DNA of 21,402 nucleotides, taken from positions 1 to 21,402 of IMG/VR virus record IMGVR_UViG_3300025767_001455. One strand, given 5' to 3'. The notes beneath the pieces were generated by a model that saw only the letters and a program-made list of their open reading frames with translations, had not been told where the DNA came from and made no database searches. Source of the DNA: a virus. Position 1 is the stretch's first letter, and every line of letters starts with the position of its first letter. Of the stretch, positions 6,517-19,794 are shown piece after piece. The position numbers and the translations under genes were made by a program.

Positions 6517-9500
6517 ATGGCTGATCTTGGTAGCATCATTCTGCGTAGAGGAACTACGGAAGAACGACTAGCATTTGTTCCACTCAAAGGCGAAATTATA
6601 TATGACACCGAGCTTAAACAAGTATTTGTAGGCGATGGTGAGACATATGGTGGCAATAACGTATTCAATGAACAACTTGTTGTTGACAATGATAATAATT
6701 TAAGAGCAGGAGATAATCTTGCTATTATTATTGATGATACAGGTGCAGCTAAAAGTTTAAGATTACCTGGTGGCGATAAGAAGGATCGTCCTAATCCAGT
6801 AGCAGGTACACTACGTTATAATACTAACGACAAAGTAGTCGAGTATGCAGATGGTAACGAATGGTTCTTTTTAAATAAAACTGTTATCAACGGTGATGTA
6901 ACAGAACTGTATGTTAGTCTTGATGGACACGATGATAGACGATACGGCGTCCAGCGTGGCCGCAGTTGGGGAACAGCATTTAGAACTGTAAACGCAGCGA
7001 TGCGATTAGCAGAAGATATTATTAATGCTAATCCGCAAACTGAAAACTTTGTTAACGAAGAACAGCCAATCAAAACAAAACAGGTATTAGTACACGTAGC
7101 TAGTGGCATCTACGAAGAACATCTCCCTATCAAAGTTCCTGAGAACACAAGTATATTTGGAGCAGGCCAACGCCGTTGTACTATTAGGCCTAAGATAGGT
7201 GTTCCTAGTGAAAGTCCTTGGGCTAGAATAAGATTTTGGAGAGAAACTGAAGAATACCCTAATGGTTATTTTGGATACCATTATCTAACAGATCCTAGAA
7301 GTGAATATTCTACGCCAAACGATAACATCAATAACGATGTATTTTTGTGTAACAGTACAAACTGGTTTCACGACTTCTCAACAGACAAACATTCGAGCTT
7401 TGCATTTGTGCTTGATCCTGAAGGACAGATTTTAACCAAGTCGCCGTATCCACATACAGGTGCTTGTTTCCCTAAATCAAGTTATGATGTCGATCCTTAT
7501 CAAGTAGGATTTCACGGCGGCATATTTGCAGACGGATTCAGCGGTAACCAAGAATTTAATATAGACACAATCGGCGGCGATAATCTAAGTATGGTTGCCA
7601 GTGGCTTTTGGCGCAAGCCTAATATGCCAACAGCATTCTATGCAGACGGTAATAGATATCAAGCGCAGAGTGTAGAAGCACCTGACGATGCAAGAGTAAA
7701 TGCAACTGCAATACTTACTGCTAACAAAGAGTTTATTCAAGAAGAAACAATTGCATATGTAAACAATACATATCTATTTGAATATGATAGAGCTAAATGC
7801 AGACGTGACCTACAGTTTATTTTAAAAGCATCAAGCTACGATAGTATATTAGGTACTAACTACTTTGGAAGAATATCAGCGTTAGCTTATACTAGACCTA
7901 ATAGTGCATATGTGTTAAGTGATCAACTTGCTCCAACAATAGGCGGACTTAACTATGCAAAAGGACAAGCTAATACAGCATTGAGTAGTATTACTTCTGT
8001 ACAACAATCTAATACTGCATTGTTTGATGATGTAATTGATGTATTACAAAATGGTGCTGCTAATGTAGATGCATTAGTTTTTCCAGACACTGTTTATGAT
8101 GATGCAAAAGATTATGCAAAACAAATTATTGCAGCAAACAAAGAATTTATTAAAGCAGAAACAGTAAGTTGGATACAACAAAGAATAATAAATGAAGTTT
8201 CTCCCTTCACTGCTGATTATGTTTATGATCAAGACAAGTGCAGAAGAGATATTGATTTCTTATTAGACGCACTTCAATTTGATTTGAGCTTTGAAGGTAA
8301 CACAGCAATTAAAGAAGTTGCTAATAGTTATTGGAAAGGCATTACAAGTCAAATACCTACGCAGATACAACAACACGTATCGACATTTGCATTTATAAGA
8401 TCAATTATAGATACTATAATGCGTAATCAAGTGTTTACTGTAGAAAATAAACAACAGGTAGAAATTCCACAAGTAACAATAGAAAGTCCCACAGTATCTG
8501 AATCACTTATTACTCGAGCTCAAGACTTAATCACAGTAGTAGAAGAAGTTGTACAATACGGCACAAATTATGCACCACTAACTGTTGCTCCAAACTTTGA
8601 TGCATTACTACTTAATACACCTCCAGCATACGTTACAGCACTAGAACAGAAATTAGCACTACGTGATAGTTTTGTTGCAGCGTTTCCTGCAATAATTGAC
8701 AGCACTATTAATTTTATTGACACTGCTTACAGTAGTTTTGTTTACGATGAGGATACGTGTCGTAGAGATGTAGGACTTATTGTGGATGCAATGATTCACG
8801 ACTTGACCTACGGTGGTGAAAGTGAAACTTGTGAAGCAGCAGCAACCTACTTTGAAACAGGCTCAACTGTAATTGCAGATCAAGAAGCAGAAACAGTTGA
8901 TGCAATTAATAAAGCACGAGACGTTGCACTTGCTTGTATAGCAGGAACCATTGTAACTCCCTTACAAACTACTGTAACACAAACTAATGGCCTGGCTGCT
9001 GCTGAAGCAGGTACTGATGTTATTGTTACAGACTTGTTTGGTATAATAACTAATCTAGTAACTAATTATGTTGCAATAAAGGCCGCACACGATCTAGTAC
9101 TTGCTAACATCGAGTGGATACAAGACGAAGTTATAGCATACACAAATACTACATACTCATCTTTCGTATACAATCAAGAGTTATGTCGTAGAGATACAGG
9201 ATTTATTGTTGCTGCTATAGCAAACGACTTGTTTGGTGGTAAGCGCAGAAGTGTCGAAGCAGGGCGTAGTTATTACAGGGGCGTAAGTTCGTTAGGTGAT
9301 CCTAGCGTAGCAATTGGAGCACAGTTAACAGAAACACTAGATGCTAACAACTATGCAAAATACCTAATAAGACAAGTACTCGGCAACGAAGCACCTACTA
9401 CAACTTATCAATCTGCTACTACACAGACAATTGATCTTACAAAAACTGTAAGCGAAACAACTAAATTATTAGCTGATAGTTTATATGATCTTGTATTAGA

Positions 9501-12500
9501 CATTATGGAAAACGGCGAGACACAAGGTCCGCAGAGTCTACCTAAATACAAAATTAACATAAGCTCTGAAACACCATTGCTGCCAGCATTAGCGAATAGA
9601 AACCTAACAATGATTACAGCAGGTAACAAATCCTTTGTTGCAACTGACTGGACAATGTTTGGTAACTTAGGTTACGGTGTACTTGCAAGAAACAATGCAC
9701 GATGCGAGCTTGTTTCTATATTCACATATTATTGTGGATACACATATAAAGCAGAAAGTGGATCAGAAGTACGTTCACTTAACGGATCTAGTTCTAATGG
9801 TATATACGGTTTAGGCGCAGAAGGACGTAACCCGTTTGAGGTTCCAGTATATGCTACTACAGTAAACGAAACAGTATTTGTTGCACAAGCTGATAACACC
9901 GTAACAGGAGATAACCTACGTGGCGACTTACAAATTGTAATTAAGAATGAACAGGGATACAACGGTGGCCCCGCAGAGTTCTTTAATGTCATGGTTGCAC
10001 AAGTATCGCATGGTGGCGAGACTGGCGATGTAAGTTATGAAATAGGCAACTTCAATGGTAACAAATTAAACATCAGAGGATCAGCGCAAGGCTTGCTTGC
10101 TGATATTCCAGACGGTGCAGATATTACTATTCGCTTGCTACAAGAATACGAAATTGATACTGACAAAGATATTACTAACCTATTGCTAGGAGCAGCATTA
10201 CAATATGACGATGACCCTAATCAAGGTTATAGAATTATTCAAGTTACTCCTAATGAACTAGTAAACAATAGATTCGCTATTAGAGCATTGCCTACCCTAA
10301 ATCACTTAGGTGTAGTTGTAAACGGTGGTGGAAGTAATGTGGGCCCAGGCGTAAATCAATTTACAATTAATGCAATTGGATATACTGCTGATCGTTTAGT
10401 TAATAGACGTTTAGGTTACAAAGGAACAATCTATAGGGTAACAGCATACGACGAACTTACAAACGTTATTACGTTAGATCAAAATCTAACAGCTGAACTA
10501 ATTGATCAAGAAAGTGTTAGACTAAGTCCTGCACCAGGTGCAACTGGAAGTATATTTACTGACTTCTCTGTTGTTAAAGCAGGTAACCATGACATGCTTG
10601 ATATTGGTACTGGTGCGTATGAAGATTCTAATTATCCAAGAGAACTGTATGGTCCTCCAACAAGAAAACCTGCACAGTCACAAGAAGTAACTGAAGTTGC
10701 ACCAGGGCGTGTGTTCTTTGTTACTAACGACCAAGATGGTAACTTCCGTGTAGGTGATTACTTCCGTGTTAACCAAGGTGACGGTAGTGTTAGTTTCTCA
10801 GCTAGTATTGCTCTAAGTAACCTTGATGGTTTAGGATTTACACGTGGTGTCACAGTTAACGAATTTAGTCCTGACAGTGACATGTCAGACATCAGTGACG
10901 AAGCGTTACCAACAGAACAAGCTGTTGTTAATTACATAAACAAACGTCTTGGACAGAATCAAGACGGTATAAAGGTTGGCCTGGCAAGACTTGGTGCCGG
11001 TACACTTATGCTCGATGGAAGTCAAGCAATGGAAGGTGACTTAGATTTAGACAATAATAATATTGTCAATCTTGGAACGTTGAACACTACTAATATTGAT
11101 GCAGCATCAACCGACACCGACAATCTAGTTGTTAACACAGGCGCAATAATTCAAAGCGCACAGATTAGTGTACTTACAAATCAACGTCTAGTTATTGCAG
11201 GAGCAAGCGGCGTTCTTGCTGACAGTGGAAACTTAGTCTTTGATGGCACTAATTTAACAGTTACAGGCAATCAAACAGTAACAGGAGCATTAACAGTTCA
11301 AGGTGTTACTACTTTCTCTCAAATGGAAGTAGACAATCTAACTGTTAAAGGAGCAATATTTGGTGGACCGCTTAACACTGATGATATCCGTATTGCAGGT
11401 AACAGACTACAAACTACAGCATCAAATGCAGACGTAGAATTGTTTGCTAACGGTACTGGTCATATTGCTTTACTGAATGCAACTGACGTTACTGGAAATT
11501 TAGACGTAACCGGAACAGTTAGCGTAAGCTCTAAACTAAACGTGGACGGACAATCTACTCTTGCAAGTCTTAACATTGAAGACCTAACAGCAACACGTAT
11601 TCCTTATGTAGGAACTAACGGTGAGCTAGAAGATAATGTAGATTTTACACTTACATTTGGCAATGATGGCTTAGGCAACGAGACTACAAATATTACTCTA
11701 ATAGGACATCAAATAGTAAACGGTAGCATTACAGTTGATGATATTGTAATTGATGAGGATACCATAGAAATGAATGGCCAGCGCATCTATGGTGCAGGCT
11801 CAAGTGCATTAGGAACAATATATCTTATCCCTGGATACACAGGAACAAACTTAGGTGATGTAGAAATATTTGGCAACCTAAGTGTTACTGGTACAGTTAA
11901 TACTACAGACGTTGGACTTGAAAATACACAAATTAACGGCAACTTAACAGTATTTGGAAATACAACATTTGGAGATCAAATAACTGATGGCGTCACGTTT
12001 ACAGCTCGTGTTAATAGTGACATACTTCCACTAACAGATAGCGCACACGACTTAGGTACTGACGGCGCAGGCGGATTAGCTTACAGATGGGCAAATGTTT
12101 ACGCAGATAACTTTGACAGTTACAACTTAAACCTACGAGAAGCAGGCGACATTAGTGTTTTTAATAGTGCAGGCACTCCTTTAGAAACATTTGCTGTAGA
12201 TGGCGCAACTGGATTTGTTGAGTCTACAGGCGGCCTAGAAATTACATATTCTGGTGATATAAGAATATACGACAGTGCAGAAACTCCAGCTGTTACATTT
12301 GAAGTAGACGGTGCTACCGGTGACGCCAGCTTTGCAGGCGATGTGCAAATAGACGGTAACTTAACTGTTACCGGAACAGTATTGAGCGATCTAAGTATTG
12401 AAGATAACATAATTGTTCTTAACAGCAATTATACTGGTACCCCTAGTGTTGACGGACTAAATGCTGCAATTGAAGTAGAGCGTGGAGCAGGCACAAACGT

Positions 12501-14520
12501 AGACATACGATGGAACGAAACTACAGACAGATGGCAAATCACAAATGATGGCGCAGTATACGGTGACATAAGAACTGCTGCTGAAATAGCAGACGATATT
12601 GCAGCAGCTAGAAGTGACTCACTAGCATTCGGTACAACTACAGGTATAATAACACTAACAAGAGGCGACGAATCTACTGCTACAGTTGATATAGACGGAC
12701 GTTACGTATTAGACACTGGCGACTCGATGTCAGGTGCATTGACAATTAGTGTCGCCGACATTCTTAATAGTGCTAACACTGACCTGTTATATTTAAAAGG
12801 TGTAACAGCAGATATTGGTGCAACACCGATGAGTGTAGGTATTGCATTTGAAATTGAAGATACTAATAATTCTACTAACTTGTCAAGAATTAGAAGTGCG
12901 GCAGTTAATGCAGCTACTTACGGTGACGATGACGAAGCAGCAAGTAATTTAATATTCAGTACAACTAATGCAGGTGTTGAAGCTGATCACGTAATCATAA
13001 CAGGTCGCGGTGAGGTAGGATTTGGCGGACAACTTAATCCTACTGCTACTGTTGACATAACTGGAACATTAAAAGTTTCTACTACTGCAAGCATAGGTAC
13101 AACTTTAACAGTTAATACTATTAACGAACTTACAGCAGACAATGGAGTTAGTGTTGAAGGAGTACTATTAAAAGATAGTAAAGTAAATGTTGATACAATA
13201 ATATCTCAGTCTGCTAATACAGATTTATCACTAAGTGGTAATGGTACTGGCATTGTTAAGATTTCTGATAGTTTAGGTGTTGATTCAATTACAGCATATA
13301 CTAACAATACTAATCTTTCATTAAGCGGTAAAGGCACTGGAGTAGTAGCAATTACTTCTACACTAAATGTTGATAGTATTGATTCAAGAACTACTAACGC
13401 TAATCTTATTTTAAGCGGTAACGGAACTGGTGTTGTTAGAGTTAATGACGACTTAGAAATTAACGGCACTGTTAAAACAAATACTATTACAACCTATGCA
13501 GCTGATACTGATCTAACACTGACTGCTAACGGAACTGGTAAAGTTTACGTCAATGACACATTTGATGTTAACGGAACTATAAGTGCTACAGCTATTACTT
13601 CCGATTCAATAAGTTCAGAAACTGTTAATACAGATTTAGAACTAAGCGGTAATGGTACTGGCAATGTTAATATTTTAGATAGCTTAGATGTAAACAGTAT
13701 TAGTTCGTATAGTGCAAACACTGCATTGCAATTAAGCGGTAACGGAACAGGTAACGTGCAAATTACTGATTCGTTACAAGTTAATACTGTTGCAGCATAT
13801 ACGCTCAATGCTGATCTTACATTAAGTGGTAGCGGTACTGGTGCAGTAAAAGTCACCACAGCATTTTATGTTGATACGATTGAATCAAGAACGACGAACA
13901 CTAATTTAACACTAAGTGCAAACGGCACTGGCGTCGTTAAGGTAAGTGATGCTTTAGATGTTACAGGTAAAATTACATCTGACACTATAGAATCTCGCAC
14001 TACTGATACAGACCTAACACTAAGTGGCAACGGTACTGGCGTGGTTTATGTAAGTGATTCTCTTAAAACAACAGACATCACAACAGGCAACTCGGCAACA
14101 GCAGGTAGTATTACAGGTAACTGGAGTTTAACCACTGGATCACGTATGCAAGCAACCTACGCTGACTTGGCAGAAATTTACGCGACAGATCAAGAGTATG
14201 AAGTCGGAACGGTAGTAATGTTTGGAGGACACAAAGAAGTTACTATTGCCAATGAATATGCTACTACACGAATCGCAGGAGTGATATCTACAGATCCTGC
14301 GTTTATAATGAACAACACAGCAGAAGGACAACCTATTGCACTTAAAGGACGTATACCAGTTAAGGTAGAAGGTATAGTGCGCAAGGGCGATTTTATTGTA
14401 GCCAGTATCACACCTGGAGTAGGTATAGCAGTTGATAAGTACATCGGCGGCGCAATAATAGGCAAAGCTATTGAAGATAAAAATACACTTGGTGTAGAGT
14501 TGTTAGAGGTAAAAGTTTAA
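6517..14520 (+). CDS. Giant tail protein (2,667 aa): Mtd-type anchor, beta-helix, CRRD repeats, 30-residue C-terminal repeats
   Basis: A very large virion protein, probably a long tail fibre or baseplate-attached fibre. In order: residues 1-50, Mtd-type anchor (ILRRGT, then GEIIYD, VFVGDG); about 125-310, a pectin-lyase-like beta-helix (VSLDGHDDRRYG, ENTSIFGAG); about 400-940, four divergent repeats built on a C-R-R-D motif (Cys 428, 575, 748 and 890); about 1020-1110, another beta-helix stretch (GNLGYGVLARNN, RSLNGSSSNGIYGL); about 1395-1445, a conserved-looking module (FVTNDQDGNFRVGDYF, ALSNLDGLGF); about 1490-2230, many short Asn/Thr-rich beta units (GNLTVTGT); about 2231-2511, nine tandem repeats; and 2543-2667, a terminal domain starting TYADLAEIYATD. 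The mix resembles large structural proteins of T4-like marine phages. It overlaps the next gene by one base. Receptor unknown. Confidence 0.88.
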   Translation: MADLGSIILRRGTTEERLAFVPLKGEIIYDTELKQVFVGDGETYGGNNVFNEQLVVDNDNNLRAGDNLAIIIDDTGAAKSLRLPGGDKKDRPNPVAGTLRYNTNDKVVEYADGNEWFFLNKTVINGDVTELYVSLDGHDDRRYGVQRGRSWGTAFRTVNAAMRLAEDIINANPQTENFVNEEQPIKTKQVLVHVASGIYEEHLPIKVPENTSIFGAGQRRCTIRPKIGVPSESPWARIRFWRETEEYPNGYFGYHYLTDPRSEYSTPNDNINNDVFLCNSTNWFHDFSTDKHSSFAFVLDPEGQILTKSPYPHTGACFPKSSYDVDPYQVGFHGGIFADGFSGNQEFNIDTIGGDNLSMVASGFWRKPNMPTAFYADGNRYQAQSVEAPDDARVNATAILTANKEFIQEETIAYVNNTYLFEYDRAKCRRDLQFILKASSYDSILGTNYFGRISALAYTRPNSAYVLSDQLAPTIGGLNYAKGQANTALSSITSVQQSNTALFDDVIDVLQNGAANVDALVFPDTVYDDAKDYAKQIIAANKEFIKAETVSWIQQRIINEVSPFTADYVYDQDKCRRDIDFLLDALQFDLSFEGNTAIKEVANSYWKGITSQIPTQIQQHVSTFAFIRSIIDTIMRNQVFTVENKQQVEIPQVTIESPTVSESLITRAQDLITVVEEVVQYGTNYAPLTVAPNFDALLLNTPPAYVTALEQKLALRDSFVAAFPAIIDSTINFIDTAYSSFVYDEDTCRRDVGLIVDAMIHDLTYGGESETCEAAATYFETGSTVIADQEAETVDAINKARDVALACIAGTIVTPLQTTVTQTNGLAAAEAGTDVIVTDLFGIITNLVTNYVAIKAAHDLVLANIEWIQDEVIAYTNTTYSSFVYNQELCRRDTGFIVAAIANDLFGGKRRSVEAGRSYYRGVSSLGDPSVAIGAQLTETLDANNYAKYLIRQVLGNEAPTTTYQSATTQTIDLTKTVSETTKLLADSLYDLVLDIMENGETQGPQSLPKYKINISSETPLLPALANRNLTMITAGNKSFVATDWTMFGNLGYGVLARNNARCELVSIFTYYCGYTYKAESGSEVRSLNGSSSNGIYGLGAEGRNPFEVPVYATTVNETVFVAQADNTVTGDNLRGDLQIVIKNEQGYNGGPAEFFNVMVAQVSHGGETGDVSYEIGNFNGNKLNIRGSAQGLLADIPDGADITIRLLQEYEIDTDKDITNLLLGAALQYDDDPNQGYRIIQVTPNELVNNRFAIRALPTLNHLGVVVNGGGSNVGPGVNQFTINAIGYTADRLVNRRLGYKGTIYRVTAYDELTNVITLDQNLTAELIDQESVRLSPAPGATGSIFTDFSVVKAGNHDMLDIGTGAYEDSNYPRELYGPPTRKPAQSQEVTEVAPGRVFFVTNDQDGNFRVGDYFRVNQGDGSVSFSASIALSNLDGLGFTRGVTVNEFSPDSDMSDISDEALPTEQAVVNYINKRLGQNQDGIKVGLARLGAGTLMLDGSQAMEGDLDLDNNNIVNLGTLNTTNIDAASTDTDNLVVNTGAIIQSAQISVLTNQRLVIAGASGVLADSGNLVFDGTNLTVTGNQTVTGALTVQGVTTFSQMEVDNLTVKGAIFGGPLNTDDIRIAGNRLQTTASNADVELFANGTGHIALLNATDVTGNLDVTGTVSVSSKLNVDGQSTLASLNIEDLTATRIPYVGTNGELEDNVDFTLTFGNDGLGNETTNITLIGHQIVNGSITVDDIVIDEDTIEMNGQRIYGAGSSALGTIYLIPGYTGTNLGDVEIFGNLSVTGTVNTTDVGLENTQINGNLTVFGNTTFGDQITDGVTFTARVNSDILPLTDSAHDLGTDGAGGLAYRWANVYADNFDSYNLNLREAGDISVFNSAGTPLETFAVDGATGFVESTGGLEITYSGDIRIYDSAETPAVTFEVDGATGDASFAGDVQIDGNLTVTGTVLSDLSIEDNIIVLNSNYTGTPSVDGLNAAIEVERGAGTNVDIRWNETTDRWQITNDGAVYGDIRTAAEIADDIAAARSDSLAFGTTTGIITLTRGDESTATVDIDGRYVLDTGDSMSGALTISVADILNSANTDLLYLKGVTADIGATPMSVGIAFEIEDTNNSTNLSRIRSAAVNAATYGDDDEAASNLIFSTTNAGVEADHVIITGRGEVGFGGQLNPTATVDITGTLKVSTTASIGTTLTVNTINELTADNGVSVEGVLLKDSKVNVDTIISQSANTDLSLSGNGTGIVKISDSLGVDSITAYTNNTNLSLSGKGTGVVAITSTLNVDSIDSRTTNANLILSGNGTGVVRVNDDLEINGTVKTNTITTYAADTDLTLTANGTGKVYVNDTFDVNGTISATAITSDSISSETVNTDLELSGNGTGNVNILDSLDVNSISSYSANTALQLSGNGTGNVQITDSLQVNTVAAYTLNADLTLSGSGTGAVKVTTAFYVDTIESRTTNTNLTLSANGTGVVKVSDALDVTGKITSDTIESRTTDTDLTLSGNGTGVVYVSDSLKTTDITTGNSATAGSITGNWSLTTGSRMQATYADLAEIYATDQEYEVGTVVMFGGHKEVTIANEYATTRIAGVISTDPAFIMNNTAEGQPIALKGRIPVKVEGIVRKGDFIVASITPGVGIAVDKYIGGAIIGKAIEDKNTLGVELLEVKV
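7720..9320 (+). repeat. Four divergent CRRD repeats inside the giant tail protein
   Basis: Each copy reads roughly: an I-x-x-E-or-D start, an aromatic/Thr stretch, Y-D/N-x-x-x-C-R-R-D, then a hydrophobic helix with D-L or similar and a Y-x-x-G end. The Cys codons are at 7798, 8239, 8758 and 9184, so the spacing is 147, 173 and 142 residues. Copies are strongly diverged at DNA level, which means old duplication under selection for the protein motif. Confidence 0.75.
13207..14052 (+). repeat. Nine tandem ~90-bp coding repeats (LSGNGTG units)
   Basis: Nine copies of N-T-x-L-x-L-S-G-N-G-T-G-x-V-x-V follow each other. The Asn codons of the NGTG turn (or equivalent position) are at about 13240, 13330, 13420, 13528, 13651, 13741, 13831, 13921 and 14029. 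Spacings are 90, 90, 108, 123, 90, 90, 90 and 108 bases, so the base unit is 30 residues with insertions of 6 or 11. A tenth, diverged copy (FANGTGHIAL) lies near 11445. This is beta-structured fibre shaft sequence and not a CRISPR array. Confidence 0.85.
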
Positions 14521-15443
14521 TGCCAGAAGTAGTAAGAGCTGAATCAGATGCACACGTAGGACACGACAGTCCTACTCCGAGTCCGTTCCATCAAACAAAC
14601 TACAAGGCAGGACAATCAACTGTATTTGTAAATACCAAAGCAGTTATACGCAAAGGTGATACAACTGATTGCGGAGATCCTGCAGAAGGCGCATCGGACA
14701 ATGTTTATGCTGAAGGTAAACTGGTACACAGAAAAGGCGATGCTACAAAAGGTCATGCGAGCTTTGTAGCGAACAGTGCTAAAACGGGATCGCCTAACGT
14801 GTTTGCTAATAACCTAACAAATGTTGCAATCAACATTACTCCGGAGCACGAAGCATATTTACGAAGCGGTGCATCAACAAGAGTTGCGCAAGGCGAATTA
14901 CTTGAGTACGGTGATGGTGGCATTAGAAACGGCGACGGGGAATATCTTTCAAACAATACAAGTCCAGTGAACGGTGTTTCTGGTCCACAAAATGCACAAT
15001 CAGGAAACGTAGATAGACCAAGTACCTTTGAACGTGTATCAGATCCTGCACTAAATTTCCTTCCGCATACTGATTCAAGAATACAGCCCGAGTTGAGAAA
15101 TATTTTAATTAGGATTGCACGATCATGGGGGCAGAATCTTACTATTACAAGCGGATATCGTAGTCCGGCATATAATGATAGTGTTGGAGGTGCAAGCGGT
15201 AGTTTACACATGCAAGGTAAAGCAGTAGATATTGTAATGAGTTCATATAGCACATCAGACAGAGCAAGATTTATTGAAATAGCAATCAACGAAGGCGCTC
15301 AAGGTATAGGTGTATACAATACATTTACGCACGTTGATATCGGCCGCAAACGTGCATGGGGATCAAACGGCAGTAGAAGCAGTTTACCTAACTATCCGTG
15401 GGCGCAACCAGTGTTAGCAAGATACGGTTACGCAACCAGTTAA
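14520..15443 (+). CDS. Tail-tip protein: PAAR-like N-terminus fused to an M15 D-Ala-D-Ala peptidase
   Basis: A 307-residue protein likely to sit at the tail spike tip and cut peptidoglycan cross-links as the tail enters. Residues about 1-100 have the PAAR-like look of repeated short beta units: PTPSPFH, AVIRKGDTTDCGDPA, KLVHRKGDATKGHASF. Residues about 185-300 are a peptidase M15 domain: SGYRSPAYN, then SLHMQGKAVDI, giving the zinc ligands H230 and D237 (H-x6-D), and THVDIG with H271 and D273. The linker (about 105-185) is low-complexity Gly/Asn/Ser. The ATG shares its A with the stop of the giant protein, tying it to the tail operon. A classical lysis endolysin is less likely given the PAAR-like part and absence of a holin next to it. 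Confidence 0.85.
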   Translation: MPEVVRAESDAHVGHDSPTPSPFHQTNYKAGQSTVFVNTKAVIRKGDTTDCGDPAEGASDNVYAEGKLVHRKGDATKGHASFVANSAKTGSPNVFANNLTNVAINITPEHEAYLRSGASTRVAQGELLEYGDGGIRNGDGEYLSNNTSPVNGVSGPQNAQSGNVDRPSTFERVSDPALNFLPHTDSRIQPELRNILIRIARSWGQNLTITSGYRSPAYNDSVGGASGSLHMQGKAVDIVMSSYSTSDRARFIEIAINEGAQGIGVYNTFTHVDIGRKRAWGSNGSRSSLPNYPWAQPVLARYGYATS

Positions 15444-15698: not shown

Positions 15699-16877
15699 AT
15701 GAAAAAGACAGTCGCAGTAGTTGGAGCAGGTATCGCAGGTATCACTACTGCGTACTATCTTGCTCGTGAAGGTTATGATGTAACTGTTTACGAACAAGAA
15801 CGCTACCCGGCAATGCGAACCAGTTTTGCCAATGGCGGACAGGTAAGCGTAAGCAATAGTGAAGTATGGACCACTTGGAGCAATGTTTTCAAAGGCATCA
15901 AATGGATGTTTAAAAAAGATGCTCCATTGTTGATGCGTCCTAAACTTGACTGGGCACAATTGAAGTGGATGGCTAAGTTCTTGTATCATACTGCTAAAGG
16001 TAGTTACGAAAAGAACACTGTTGACACTATCACTATGGGTCTAGAAGCTCGCAAGTTATACGAACAAATACAACAAGAAGAAGCACTAGACTTTGATCAA
16101 AGTAAATCAGGCATCTTACATTTTTATAAAGATTCCAAGTATTTTGACAATGCTGTTCGTGCTGGCGAATTGTATAGGAGCGCAGGTTGCGAATGGGATA
16201 TATTATCCCCACTACAAACTACTAGTCTAGATTCTTCATTAAGTAATATACAAAACGTCGTGGGCGGAGCATGGACTAAGGATGACTTCACTGGAGACAT
16301 ACACAAGTTTTGTTATCAGCTTACCCAAGTGTTAGAAAATAAATACGGTGTTAAGTTTTACTACAACTGTGAAGTTGACGACATTACAGAATTGTTGTAT
16401 AATGATGCTGTTGTTATTGCTAATGGAGTAGGAAGCACAAAGTTGGCAAAGACTATCGGCGATAGCTTAGACGTTTACCCTGTCAAAGGATATTCAATTA
16501 CAATTAACAATGTCGATCCTAAGTACTTGCCTCGAGTAAGTTTGTTAGACGACCAAGCAAAGATTGTAACATCAAGTTTAGGTAATCGTTTTAGAGTAGC
16601 AGGTACAGCAGAGTTAGCAGGAGAGGACTATGATATTCGTAGAGATCGCATTCAGCCATTGTTGGATTGGGTACACAAAAACTTTCCCAATATCAACACA
16701 CATGACTACACTCAATGGGCATGCTTGCGCCCGATGACTCCTAATATGATGCCTATTGTAAAGCAAAGCGATCGTAACCCTAAAGTGTTTTATCATGTAG
16801 GACATGGACATTTGGGATGGACACTTAGTCCGTCAACAGCAACAACTGTTGTTAATTTAATTAAAAAGGCAATCTAA
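15699..16877 (+). CDS. dadA: D-amino-acid dehydrogenase-like FAD oxidoreductase (DadA family)
   Basis: A 392-residue FAD-dependent amine dehydrogenase of the DAO superfamily, slightly shorter than E. coli DadA (432). Residues 6-33 are the FAD-binding Rossmann motif (VVGAGIAG, with the acid in VTVYEQE). DadA-type signatures follow: TSFANGGQVSVSNSEVW near 42-58, VKGYSITI in the middle, WACLRPMTPNMMPIV near 345-360 and GHLGWTLSPSTA near 375. DadA oxidises D-amino acids, chiefly D-Ala, to the 2-oxo acid plus ammonia and passes electrons to the respiratory chain. A glycine oxidase-like or other substrate cannot be excluded from sequence. No clear SD precedes the ATG, so coupling to the small upstream gene is likely. 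It overlaps glyA by one base. Auxiliary metabolic gene. Confidence 0.88.
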   Translation: MKKTVAVVGAGIAGITTAYYLAREGYDVTVYEQERYPAMRTSFANGGQVSVSNSEVWTTWSNVFKGIKWMFKKDAPLLMRPKLDWAQLKWMAKFLYHTAKGSYEKNTVDTITMGLEARKLYEQIQQEEALDFDQSKSGILHFYKDSKYFDNAVRAGELYRSAGCEWDILSPLQTTSLDSSLSNIQNVVGGAWTKDDFTGDIHKFCYQLTQVLENKYGVKFYYNCEVDDITELLYNDAVVIANGVGSTKLAKTIGDSLDVYPVKGYSITINNVDPKYLPRVSLLDDQAKIVTSSLGNRFRVAGTAELAGEDYDIRRDRIQPLLDWVHKNFPNINTHDYTQWACLRPMTPNMMPIVKQSDRNPKVFYHVGHGHLGWTLSPSTATTVVNLIKKAI

Positions 16878-18016
16878 TGGATAATAGAATTAAAAATATA
16901 CTGTTGAATGAAGGTATTCGGCAAGCGTCAACAGTAGAACTTATTGCAAGTGAGAACTTTGCAAGTGAAGCTGTTATGGAACTTGCTGGCAGTATTTTTA
17001 CCAATAAGTATGCAGAAGGTTATCCAGGCAAGCGTTACTACAACGGCTGCGATAACATGGACGAAGTTGAAGAATTAGCAATCGAACAGCTGAAAGAGAT
17101 CTACGGCTGTAACTTTGCAAACGTACAACCGCACTGTGGTGCAAATGCTAATACTGCTATCTATCTAGCATTTCTACAACCAGGAGATCGTATCTTAGGT
17201 ATGGATCTAGCAAGTGGTGGACATTTGAGTCATGGTGCTCCTGTAAACATCTCAGGCAAAGTATACGAAGCTCATCACTACGGTGTAGACGAAGCAGGTT
17301 GGCTTGACTACGGTGCCATTCTTGCACAAGCAATTGAAGTAAAACCTAAGATTATTGTTGCAGGTGCAAGTGCATATCCTCGTCAAATCAATTGGGAAAA
17401 GTTTAGGCATATTGCAGATGTGGTAGGAGCATACCTACTAGTTGATATGGCACACTACTCAGGACTTATTGCAGGCAGTGCTTATCCTAGTCCTGTGCCA
17501 TACGCAGATTTTGTTACAAGTACTACACACAAAACGCTACGTGGTCCACGTGGCGGCATTATTTTGTGGAATAAAGAAGAATACACTCGTAAGATCAATA
17601 GTGCTATCTTCCCTGGAACACAAGGTGGTCCGTTGATGAACATTATTGCTGCCAAAGCACAGGCGTTCGTAGAAGCAAACAATCCAGAGTTTAGACACTA
17701 TGCGTGTCGTGTAATTGAAAACGCACAGGAAATGTGTGCAGTGTTTAATCAGCGTGGACTCAAAGTTCAAACAGGTGGAACAGACTCGCATATTATCCTA
17801 ATGGATCTAAGTGAAAGCAAGTATAGTGGACGTGAAGCCGCTGATATGCTAGAAGCAAATGGCATCACTGTTAACAAAAACGGTGTACCTAATGATCCTC
17901 GCAGCTTTGTAGAGACAAGTGGTATCCGTATTGGTACAGCGGCAGAAACTACTCGCGGACACAACGAAATGTGGTTCCGTCAACTGGCACATAAAATTGC
18001 GGACATCTTAGAATGA
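16877..18016 (+). CDS. glyA: Serine hydroxymethyltransferase
   Basis: A PLP enzyme that interconverts serine plus tetrahydrofolate and glycine plus methylene-tetrahydrofolate, the one-carbon donor for thymidylate and purines. It has 379 residues against about 417 in bacteria; the first ~10 residues and part of the C-terminal domain are shorter. The active site is intact: E47 and Y55 (NKYAEGYPGKRYYNG), D190 and H193 (VDMAHYSG), the PLP lysine K219 (TTHKTLRGPRGG) and R351 (SGIRIGT). Numbering runs 10 to 12 behind E. coli throughout, with no internal gap at the active site. It shares one base with dadA and four with the next gene. With the nrd genes it makes biosynthetic sense for phage nucleotide supply; it could instead relieve a host glycine/serine limit. 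Confidence 0.97.
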   Translation: MDNRIKNILLNEGIRQASTVELIASENFASEAVMELAGSIFTNKYAEGYPGKRYYNGCDNMDEVEELAIEQLKEIYGCNFANVQPHCGANANTAIYLAFLQPGDRILGMDLASGGHLSHGAPVNISGKVYEAHHYGVDEAGWLDYGAILAQAIEVKPKIIVAGASAYPRQINWEKFRHIADVVGAYLLVDMAHYSGLIAGSAYPSPVPYADFVTSTTHKTLRGPRGGIILWNKEEYTRKINSAIFPGTQGGPLMNIIAAKAQAFVEANNPEFRHYACRVIENAQEMCAVFNQRGLKVQTGGTDSHIILMDLSESKYSGREAADMLEANGITVNKNGVPNDPRSFVETSGIRIGTAAETTRGHNEMWFRQLAHKIADILE

Positions 18017-18288: not shown

Positions 18289-18505
18289 TTATAATATAGA
18301 CCAAGCAGGTGATAACTTTAGAGTTGTTGGTGATTGGCCTGGCGAAGTCATGGGTAAGAAACAAGACGGCAGTGACAAAGGCTACGCATTGTATAGACCC
18401 GGAGATGTATTCATAGTAAACGAAGGCGGTTGGCTTTGTAAAGTAGAAGATGTAACAGCACTAATGATGAAATATGAAGCAGGTAAGGTAAAAGATGAAG
18501 TGTAA
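18275..18505 (+). CDS. Small protein, function unknown
   Basis: A 76-residue acidic protein with a good SD (AAGGAAGG, 18258-18265), overlapping the gene before it by 14 bases. It contains beta-type segments (NFRVVGDWPGEV, YALYRPGDVFIV, GGWLCKVED) that suggest a small barrel, and a short C-terminal helix. The family is not recognised. It belongs to the string of three overlapping small genes at the end of the glyA operon. Confidence 0.65.
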   Translation: MLWTDYNIDQAGDNFRVVGDWPGEVMGKKQDGSDKGYALYRPGDVFIVNEGGWLCKVEDVTALMMKYEAGKVKDEV

Positions 18506-18806
18506 GGCAGGAGATATTGCTCGTATTATCTATTCCGTGCGTCCAGAGAACATCGGACGAGTTGTAAAAGTAGTTGAGTATATCGGTAAGTTTGAAGAAA
18601 AAGAACAGTGGCAGTTTAGAGGAATGCCTTGCCAAGCGCCTGTGCATGATCACTATTGGTGGATTGAAGCAGATGACTTGTCTAGTGGATTTGGTCCAAG
18701 CCCTAAGGCATACATTGCCGACACATGGCTAGAACCAATTCGCCCAGAAGGAGAGAAACGATCTACTTCAACAGAAGAAAAACTAAGAAGATACGAGCAC
18801 GGTTGA
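18495..18806 (+). CDS. Small protein with SH3-like barrel pattern, function unknown
   Basis: A 103-residue protein overlapping the previous gene by 11 bases, with AGGTAAGG about eight bases upstream. The first 30 residues (KAGDIARIIYSVRPENIGRVVKVVEYIG) have the pattern of KOW or SH3-like barrels: a G-D-x-A-R-I strand, a P-x-N-x-G-R turn and a V-V-x-V strand. A Trp-rich middle (HDHYWWIEADD) and WLEPIRPEG follow, then a charged tail. Such folds often bind nucleic acid or protein, but no function can be assigned. It ends the operon; the tmRNA promoter begins eight bases later. Confidence 0.65.
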   Translation: MKCKAGDIARIIYSVRPENIGRVVKVVEYIGKFEEKEQWQFRGMPCQAPVHDHYWWIEADDLSSGFGPSPKAYIADTWLEPIRPEGEKRSTSTEEKLRRYEHG

Positions 18807-18813
18807 AAAGAAC

Positions 18814-18844
18814 TTGACATGTTCCTTTAAATGTGTTATAAATA
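18814..18844 (+). promoter_or_regulatory. Overlapping sigma70 and T4-type late promoters of the tmRNA gene
   Basis: TTGACA (18814-18819) and TATAAA (18837-18842) are 17 bases apart, a near-consensus sigma70 promoter. The -10 box is at the same time the first part of TATAAATA (18837-18844), a perfect T4 late promoter consensus. Both would start RNA at about 18849-18850. The tmRNA could thus be made in the early phase by host polymerase and in the late phase with the phage sigma factor. Confidence 0.8.
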
Positions 18845-18911
18845 TACTTGTAATGTTGAAGCGATTTGACGACTGAACTGGACCCGGGGGCGGCACCCGG
18901 CATCTCCACCA

Positions 18912-18940
18912 AGTGTACATTTACTGAGTGTATAGTTGAT
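18912..18940 (+). other. Spacer between tmRNA pieces (removed in processing)
   Basis: The 29 bases between the encoded CCA (ending 18911) and the first G of the coding piece (18941) correspond to the intervening segment that is excised from permuted tmRNA precursors. It contains a weak hairpin (TACA 18916-18919 with TGTA 18929-18932). RNase P would be expected to make the cut at 18940/18941 as for a tRNA 5' end; that is by analogy. Confidence 0.75.
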
Positions 18941-19024
18941 GGGGATGAAGCAGGTATCGACAGGCAGGATAGAAGAGTGGAGTTACCGGGATCTAAGCGC
19001 CGTACCGCGAAGAAAACTATAATT

Positions 19025-19054
19025 GCAAACGAAAGTTACGCATTAGCAGCCTAA
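19025..19054 (+). other. tmRNA tag reading frame (ANESYALAA, stop TAA)
   Basis: The resume codon is taken as GCA at 19025-19027, by alignment with the E. coli tmRNA context (an A-rich stretch, ATAGTC, then GCAAACG; here ATAATT then GCAAACG). The tag is nine encoded residues, ANESYALAA, against ANDENYALAA in E. coli. The C-terminal ALAA is the ClpX/ClpA recognition end. The frame is open upstream to 18866, but that part crosses the encoded CCA and tRNA-like domain and is not a protein gene. Confidence 0.85.
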
Positions 19055-19096
19055 GGGCAGCTACGAGGTAGTTAGACCTTGTTACCAAACATAGCA

Positions 19097-19125
19097 GAGA
19101 GGGCAGCTTAGGCTGCTCTCTTTTT
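19097..19125 (+). terminator. Rho-independent terminator after the tmRNA
   Basis: A hairpin with left arm 19097-19107 (GAGAGGGCAGC), loop TTAG and right arm 19112-19122 pairs over 11 positions, three of them G-U at most, and is followed by a T run. It closes the tmRNA transcription unit and may define the precursor 3' end. Confidence 0.9.
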
Positions 19126-19206
19126 CACTAACCACGTTTATCTTAGTAGAAACACTGAGATGATAAGTAAATTGTCAATTAAGACAGAAAAAGGAAACTA
19201 ACTAAA

Positions 19207-19794
19207 ATGAATACTACTACAATGATGATGGTTGCCGCAGTGGCAATGATTAGCACAGCCGCAGTGGCAGGTGACTACGACAATACAGCAGTAAAATTGA
19301 CTGCACAATCTGATGCTTACTCTATTAGCGTCAAAGCACCAGAAACAGGTGCAACTGAATTTGCTGTTAGCGTAACAACAGCACCAGTTGATGTAACTGC
19401 TACTTGGAGCCGTGAAGGCGCAGTAGACAACTATGCATTAAAAGCTGGTAAAGAAGTTGAAGTAGTTGGTCCAGTATATGCAGGCGCAAATGCAGAGTTT
19501 ACATTCGGTGACAGCTATACTTCAAAGACACGCACTGTAGTTGCAACTCCATATGTTGGCGTAGCACACGCAATGGGCCAATTGACACCGTATGCAGAAG
19601 TTGGCTATTCATTCAAGTCAACAACTAACGATGTACTTGGCTTTGCTCGCAATGACTCATATCTAGAAGTTGGTGCAAGCTATGCAGTAACTCCAGCAAT
19701 GGCAGTTAAACTAAGCGTGTCAGAAACACGTGACATTAACTTTAAAAATGCTGGTGACAAGAACGCAACAGTAGGCATTACTGTTAAATTCTAA
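19207..19794 (+). CDS. Small outer-membrane beta-barrel-like protein with signal peptide
   Basis: A 195-residue exported protein. Residues 1-21 are a Sec signal peptide: a short N-terminus with no Lys or Arg, a hydrophobic core (MMMVAAVAMIS) and an AVA cleavage site before G22. The mature ~174 residues alternate polar and hydrophobic residues in strand-like stretches (AYSISVKA, EFAVSVTT, VDVTATWS, TVVATPYVGVAHA, LTPYAEVGYSF, YLEVGASYAV, MAVKLSVSE) and end in VGITVKF, with the C-terminal Phe typical of outer-membrane barrels inserted by the BAM machinery. Size suits an eight-stranded OmpA/OmpX-like barrel. The SD is AAGGAAA at 19191-19197. It stands alone between two terminators. A phage might use it to block further adsorption or change the host surface. 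No specific family recognised. Confidence 0.8.
   Translation: MNTTTMMMVAAVAMISTAAVAGDYDNTAVKLTAQSDAYSISVKAPETGATEFAVSVTTAPVDVTATWSREGAVDNYALKAGKEVEVVGPVYAGANAEFTFGDSYTSKTRTVVATPYVGVAHAMGQLTPYAEVGYSFKSTTNDVLGFARNDSYLEVGASYAVTPAMAVKLSVSETRDINFKNAGDKNATVGITVKF
19234..19269 (+). repeat. 12-bp direct repeat within the signal-peptide coding region
   Basis: GCCGCAGTGGCA occurs at 19234-19245 and 19258-19269, in frame, 24 bases apart, encoding the repeated AAVA motif. It probably reflects a small duplication that lengthened the hydrophobic core. Confidence 0.7.

Follow-up and report, generated by a model that had tools for sequence, protein, structure and literature searches.

The stretch of DNA analysed here (the window) comprises the whole of a viral record, 21,402 bases, and its source is a T4-like marine phage. 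Its genes encode tail or fibre proteins, NrdA, NrdB, glutaredoxin, a PAAR-M15 peptidase protein, a DadA-like oxidase and GlyA, together with an outer-membrane barrel protein, a peroxiredoxin and a nuclease. At 18849-19125 we identified a circularly permuted (two-piece) tmRNA gene, in which the tRNA-like 3' half comes first and is succeeded by a spacer and then by the 5' half. The locus is organized as follows.

18495..18806, + strand: small ORF (phrog_2529), directly 5' of the tmRNA here and in many relatives
18814..18819, + strand: -35 element TTGACA, a perfect consensus, read from the sequence
18837..18844, + strand: TATAAATA, overlapping a sigma-70 -10 element (TATAAA) and equal to the T4-type late promoter motif
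18849..18911, + strand: acceptor piece (leader, T-arm, acceptor 3' strand, A73 and encoded CCA), from Rfam and ARAGORN
18884-18900, + strand: T-arm CCGGG-GGCGGCA-CCCGG, the T-stem showing compensation in relatives
18901-18907, + strand: acceptor 3' strand CATCTCC, followed by ACCA at 18908-18911
18912..18940, + strand: intervening spacer of 29 nt, forming a hairpin (fold -7.2 kcal/mol, z -2.0)
18941..19054, + strand: coding piece, 5' part, with the acceptor 5' strand, the D-domain (containing TATCGACAGG) and the tag frame, from sequence, ARAGORN and Rfam
18941-18947, + strand: acceptor 5' strand GGGGATG, pairing 7/7 with CATCTCC, G3-U70 included
19025..19054, + strand: tag reading frame ANESYALAA with TAA stop, from ARAGORN
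19055..19096, + strand: coding piece, 3' part (pseudoknot region); the RF01850 match extends to 19123
19097..19122, + strand: intrinsic terminator, an 11-pair hairpin followed by a T-run, from sequence and fold
19207..19794, + strand: outer-membrane beta-barrel protein (Phage_OMP), the next gene 3' of the tmRNA

Elsewhere in the window, an ORF of 2,667 residues (6517-14520) probably encodes a giant repetitive fibre or structural protein, and a single protein at 14520-15443 combines a PAAR motif with a C-terminal M15 peptidase, its PAAR part being closest to those of phages Melnitz and HTVC008M. At 15699-18016, the DadA-like oxidase adjoins serine hydroxymethyltransferase (GlyA); both are rare among named phage records (4 and 48, respectively) and are possible glycine/serine metabolism genes.

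A preliminary description of this DNA had proposed a phage-borne permuted tmRNA, and computational screening bore this out, with phage genes on both flanks. ARAGORN called a permuted tmRNA with the tag ANESYALAA at 18819-19145, and Rfam searches returned beta_tmRNA (RF01850; 102.2 bits, E 2e-30, 18813-19123, cut-off 84), tmRNA_permuted (RF04321; 101.7 bits, 18849-19054, cut-off 47) and alpha_tmRNA (RF01849; 81.8 bits, cut-off 50), all above cut-off; the window gave no match to cyano_tmRNA (RF01851). The seven-position acceptor pairing with G3-U70 that had been described is present in full, as are the D-domain, the terminator, a tag frame that comes after the resume codon and ends in ALAA and a stop, and a promoter in front (TTGACA-17-TATAAATA, 18814-18844). 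A CCA is likewise encoded, but the span originally assigned to it, 18901-18911, takes in the acceptor strand and ACCA, the CCA itself occupying 18909-18911. The fold of the tmRNA is more stable than those of shuffled sequences (z -3.3).

A blastn search of the tmRNA gene against phage records gave no match, and relatives were found instead by T-loop and tag patterns. All 155 unique viral relatives have a T-stem paired 5/5, and 128 of them have an acceptor paired 7/7, variable positions showing several standard pair types; the acceptor 5' strand was located automatically, and the remaining relatives at least partly reflect its misplacement by the script, as in HTVC008M. The T-loop of the window departs from the canonical TTCRANT, a point absent from the preliminary description, and this departure could be read as the mark of a decayed pseudogene. 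We regard that explanation as very improbable, given that the form GGCRGYA is normal for alphaproteobacterial tmRNAs and that every stem and the tag are intact.

The gene order around the tmRNA also recurs. In contigs L017, L040, L041, L129, L170, L380 and L484, among others, the small ORF lies directly 5' of the tmRNA, or a barrel, peroxiredoxin or nuclease gene lies 3' of it, or both; the homologue of the small ORF in L040 has 78% identity and ends at the tmRNA, and Phage_OMP itself is 3' of the tmRNA in L017, L041 and L170. Contig L380, from another sample, carries GlyA, three homologous small ORFs and the tmRNA in that order, with the same promoter and tag as the window and different stems. 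Because the stems vary by compensation and the same neighbours stand on both sides in independent viral contigs, we conclude that the assembly is not chimeric; fusion with a bacterial chromosome at this point, which the preliminary description had raised, is extremely improbable for a locus that is flanked by phage genes and keeps its order in the seven contigs named. The peroxiredoxin gene of the window lies two genes 3' of the tmRNA, and in SAR11-type phage contigs with the tag ANESYALAA (L414, L432, L449, L462, L508 and others) the tmRNA often adjoins or is near a peroxiredoxin gene.

The window T-loop, GGCGGCA, fits the alphaproteobacterial pattern GGCRGYA. When about 85,000 species genomes were scanned for this pattern in a tmRNA context, at least 118 stretches matched; among the matches listed, ARAGORN calls a tmRNA in 103, and of the 80 with titles all except about 6 name Alphaproteobacteria, Pelagibacteraceae included. 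Three stretches among the exceptions come from Saccharibacteria and have no tmRNA call. We had considered GGCGGCA as a phage novelty and rejected this, since the scan of cellular genomes revealed an ordinary alphaproteobacterial form. The tag ANESYALAA is identical in three Pelagibacteraceae tmRNAs (L235, L266 and L275) and is the sole tag common to 73 phage and 68 cellular tags, its phage count being inflated by its use as a search pattern. To our knowledge, AN and ALAA are near-universal in tmRNA tags, so that only three residues carry the match.

We likewise rejected the lineage that the Rfam scores by themselves would assign (beta at 102 bits, alpha at 82), as T-loop and tag contradict it: the beta consensus T-loop in the RF01850 alignment is UUCGAUU, which GGCGGCA does not meet. 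The syntenic homologue in L380 scores 70 on RF01850, below cut-off. The preliminary description had expected a high score to one permuted model to name the lineage; the scores are indeed strong, but the lineage named by the top model is not the one indicated by T-loop and tag. On the basis of these two features, we take the tmRNA type to be alphaproteobacterial, although the best full-length Rfam model is beta; a cyanobacterial type is not supported.

These assignments bear on the host, for which alphaproteobacteria or marine cyanobacteria had been suggested. The T-loop and tag are indeed of alpha/SAR11 type and the cyanobacterial option found no support, but the tmRNA type does not fix the host, because Melnitz has an alpha-type tmRNA yet infects OM43 and because the window tmRNA clusters with phage genes only and apart from those of SAR11. 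Naming the host by protein similarity was not decisive either: NrdA and NrdB are closest to those of cyanophages (72% and about 65%), and PAAR/M15 is closest to Melnitz and HTVC008M. The window has a GC content of 40%, whereas contigs of SAR11 phages that share its tag are at roughly 32%. As a caution, the host should not be named from tmRNA type alone.

In a quick tree, the window fell within a set of 78 phage tmRNAs with no cellular members (support 0.76). A more careful tree was computed from 103 rows and 141 columns with the tag left out; it has many open forks and includes no betaproteobacterial rows, because a sample of 200 Pseudomonadota gave no beta tmRNA over cut-off, some of which the fast filters may have lost. 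The 53 phage rows of this tree need 2 label changes, compared with 34.7 in shuffles. With these 141 columns and no beta rows, holding the window with SAR11 was rejected (p-AU 0.020) and holding it with all cellular rows was borderline (p-AU 0.0525); a single clade of all phage rows was not rejected (p-AU 0.448). Over the compared segments, the window tmRNA has a mean identity of 42% and a maximum of 45% to SAR11 genes, and 76% to L380.

Recent capture of a host tmRNA gene by the phage, through transduction or imprecise excision, would account for a tag shared with SAR11 tmRNAs and for the alpha-type T-loop, and gene exchange has been proposed as the origin of the Melnitz tmRNA (PMC9004378). 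Nevertheless, the identities to SAR11 genes are far below that to L380, the grouping with SAR11 is rejected, and the promoter and neighbours are phage-specific, which makes recent capture distinctly unlikely and leaves ancient capture as the remaining possibility. Judged from these comparisons, the window tmRNA apparently belongs to an old phage-only lineage.

The promoter is a further phage-specific trait. In the window TATAAATA occurs as a single copy, both strands counted, 17 nt from TTGACA. Of 105 regions upstream of viral tmRNAs with GGC T-loops, 57 contain exact TATAAATA, whereas none of the 145 cellular regions does; the background rate is 0.026 per 120 nt. Among the 94 viral relatives that were aligned, 42 have TTGACA matching 6/6 at the 17-nt spacing. 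Across all phage loci compared, TTGACA stands beside 62 of the 88 copies of TATAAATA near tmRNA, compared with 10 of 441 elsewhere, and 2 of these 10 proved to be tmRNA genes missed by ARAGORN. We read TTGACA-17-TATAAATA as a composite promoter in which a host sigma-70 motif is combined with a T4-late motif and which is all but confined to these tmRNA genes. A generic promoter scan had missed it, as such a scan accepts only T at the sixth position of the -10 element.

By analogy with T4 biology, TATAAATA may direct late transcription in this phage. None of the structural genes of the window is preceded by it. The motif is enriched before ORFs within 260 nt (68% versus 43% for a control word), but because this enrichment is limited to that range, with none at 20-60 nt before ORFs, it argues weakly for late-promoter use. 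The tmRNA promoter of Melnitz, where the same TATAAATA is present before the tmRNA, was called early (PMC9004378).

The spacers between the halves have a median length of 29 nt in cellular genes and 64 nt in phage genes, and 64 of 91 phage spacers are closed by a helix of at least 7 pairs, compared with 5.5% in shuffles. When the spacer is 90 nt or longer, 22 of 32 hold an ORF over 75% of its length (4.35 expected from mononucleotide shuffles), and pairs of these ORFs are conserved as proteins, with changes mostly at third codon positions. Small spacer ORFs were seen in L065, L095, L096, L131, L136, L146, L147, L148, L152, L159, L182, L183, L351 and others, with MDFHWISW...FQWGDFR and MEIIWHILLTVC as recurring families. 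Cloverleaf-like folds with T-arm-like hairpins occur in the spacers of L380 (L380:8008-8096, GAGG-TTCGAAT-CCTC), L107 and L201; ARAGORN found no tRNA in any spacer, and Rfam called none for these three. One tRNA within a permuted tmRNA spacer has been described, in a nominally archaeal genome (PMC11915505).

The mature RNA of L129 and L484 is largely common while their spacers differ, and the spacers of L129 and the window (18912-18940) are nearly identical, a pattern which suggests that the spacer may be exchanged as a unit. It is possible, although we would stop short of calling it probable, that marine T4-like phages have long kept their own tmRNA lineage, transcribed both early and late from a composite promoter specific to tmRNA genes, and that the spacer provides an exchangeable slot for small proteins and cloverleaf-like RNAs released at processing, the window being a member with a short, empty spacer.

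With respect to function, we are highly confident that this T4-like marine phage carries a circularly permuted ssrA gene that looks functional and is predicted from its sequence to use host SmpB and host alanyl-tRNA synthetase. SmpB was not found in 15 related phage records (Melnitz and HTVC008M included, several possibly incomplete), the same search being positive in 10 of 14 control genomes, and ordinary trans-translation with host SmpB is therefore most likely. In such a scheme, host RNase P, together with the enzymes that process tRNA 3' ends, would cut the precursor at either end of the spacer, and the two resulting RNAs would stay joined by pairing. Host alanyl-tRNA synthetase would charge the tmRNA via G3-U70, and host SmpB would bring it to stalled ribosomes, where ANESYALAA would be added and the tagged product passed to host proteases. 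The promoter may be read early by host sigma-70 and late by the phage late machinery, and tmRNA made at both times could keep ribosomes circulating while mRNAs are degraded. We infer that the phage supplies its own ribosome rescue RNA.

The same RNA could instead act as a decoy or inhibitor that loads host SmpB, alters the tag and blocks or redirects host rescue. DS6A, a tag-less phage form, offers a precedent, since in the passage of PMC11915505 that cites it this form inhibits endogenous tmRNA, and some phage tags, long ones included, are far from host tags. However, the window gene retains all parts for full trans-translation and its tag ends in ALAA as host tags do, so that we consider a decoy unlikely and favour ribosome rescue.

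The preliminary description had found a split tmRNA in a phage much less familiar than a one-piece form, but the two-piece tmRNA of phage Melnitz, whose host belongs to the OM43 clade, was published in 2022, and two-piece forms make up 53 of 133 unique phage tmRNA structures, 50 of the 53 being marine or aquatic (PMC9004378). Permuted tmRNAs in viral contigs also number well over 100 among the matches listed here. The T4-like marine Methylophilales phage Melnitz (MZ577097) resembles the window in its permuted ssrA, alpha-type T-loop (GGCAGTA) and TTGACA with TATAAATA, but differs in its tag, ANDNYVPVDYALAA, its spacer of more than 140 nt with a small ORF, and its other neighbours; a glutamine riboswitch was reported for Melnitz (PMC9004378), whereas an Rfam search of the window gave none.

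Pelagibacter phage HTVC008M shares a phage permuted tmRNA and a nearby peroxiredoxin gene with the window, but has the T-loop TGCAATA, the tag ANFNEYALAA and another promoter class. Its tmRNA lies at about 145120-145460 of KC465899.1 (L377:1621-1962) and is unannotated in the record. Predicted tags of about 29-31 residues, far above the usual length, occur in L041, L054 and L057 (also L123 and L124) and share FVNF/FVDF before EDFALAA. Among cellular forms, alphaproteobacterial permuted tmRNAs (RF01849), especially those of Pelagibacteraceae, have the same gene order, the T-loop GGCRGYA and, in part of SAR11, ANESYALAA, whereas those of Pelagibacteraceae reach no more than 45% identity in the segments compared and have a different 5' leader and no TATAAATA promoter. 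The betaproteobacterial form (RF01850) gives the top full-length Rfam score but has the beta T-loop.

Collectively, the window adds another two-piece tmRNA to those already known in phages (PMC9004378), and a clear case among the little-studied phage tmRNAs. Three computational results reach beyond what was found in the openly searchable literature: the separate grouping of phage tmRNAs, their composite promoter and the cargo of their spacers. The cultured phages Melnitz and HTVC008M would allow the promoter and the filled spacers, both concrete traits, to be tested. Because phage tmRNA genes are common, syntenic and separate from cellular ones, they are probably selected for and not passing host genes.
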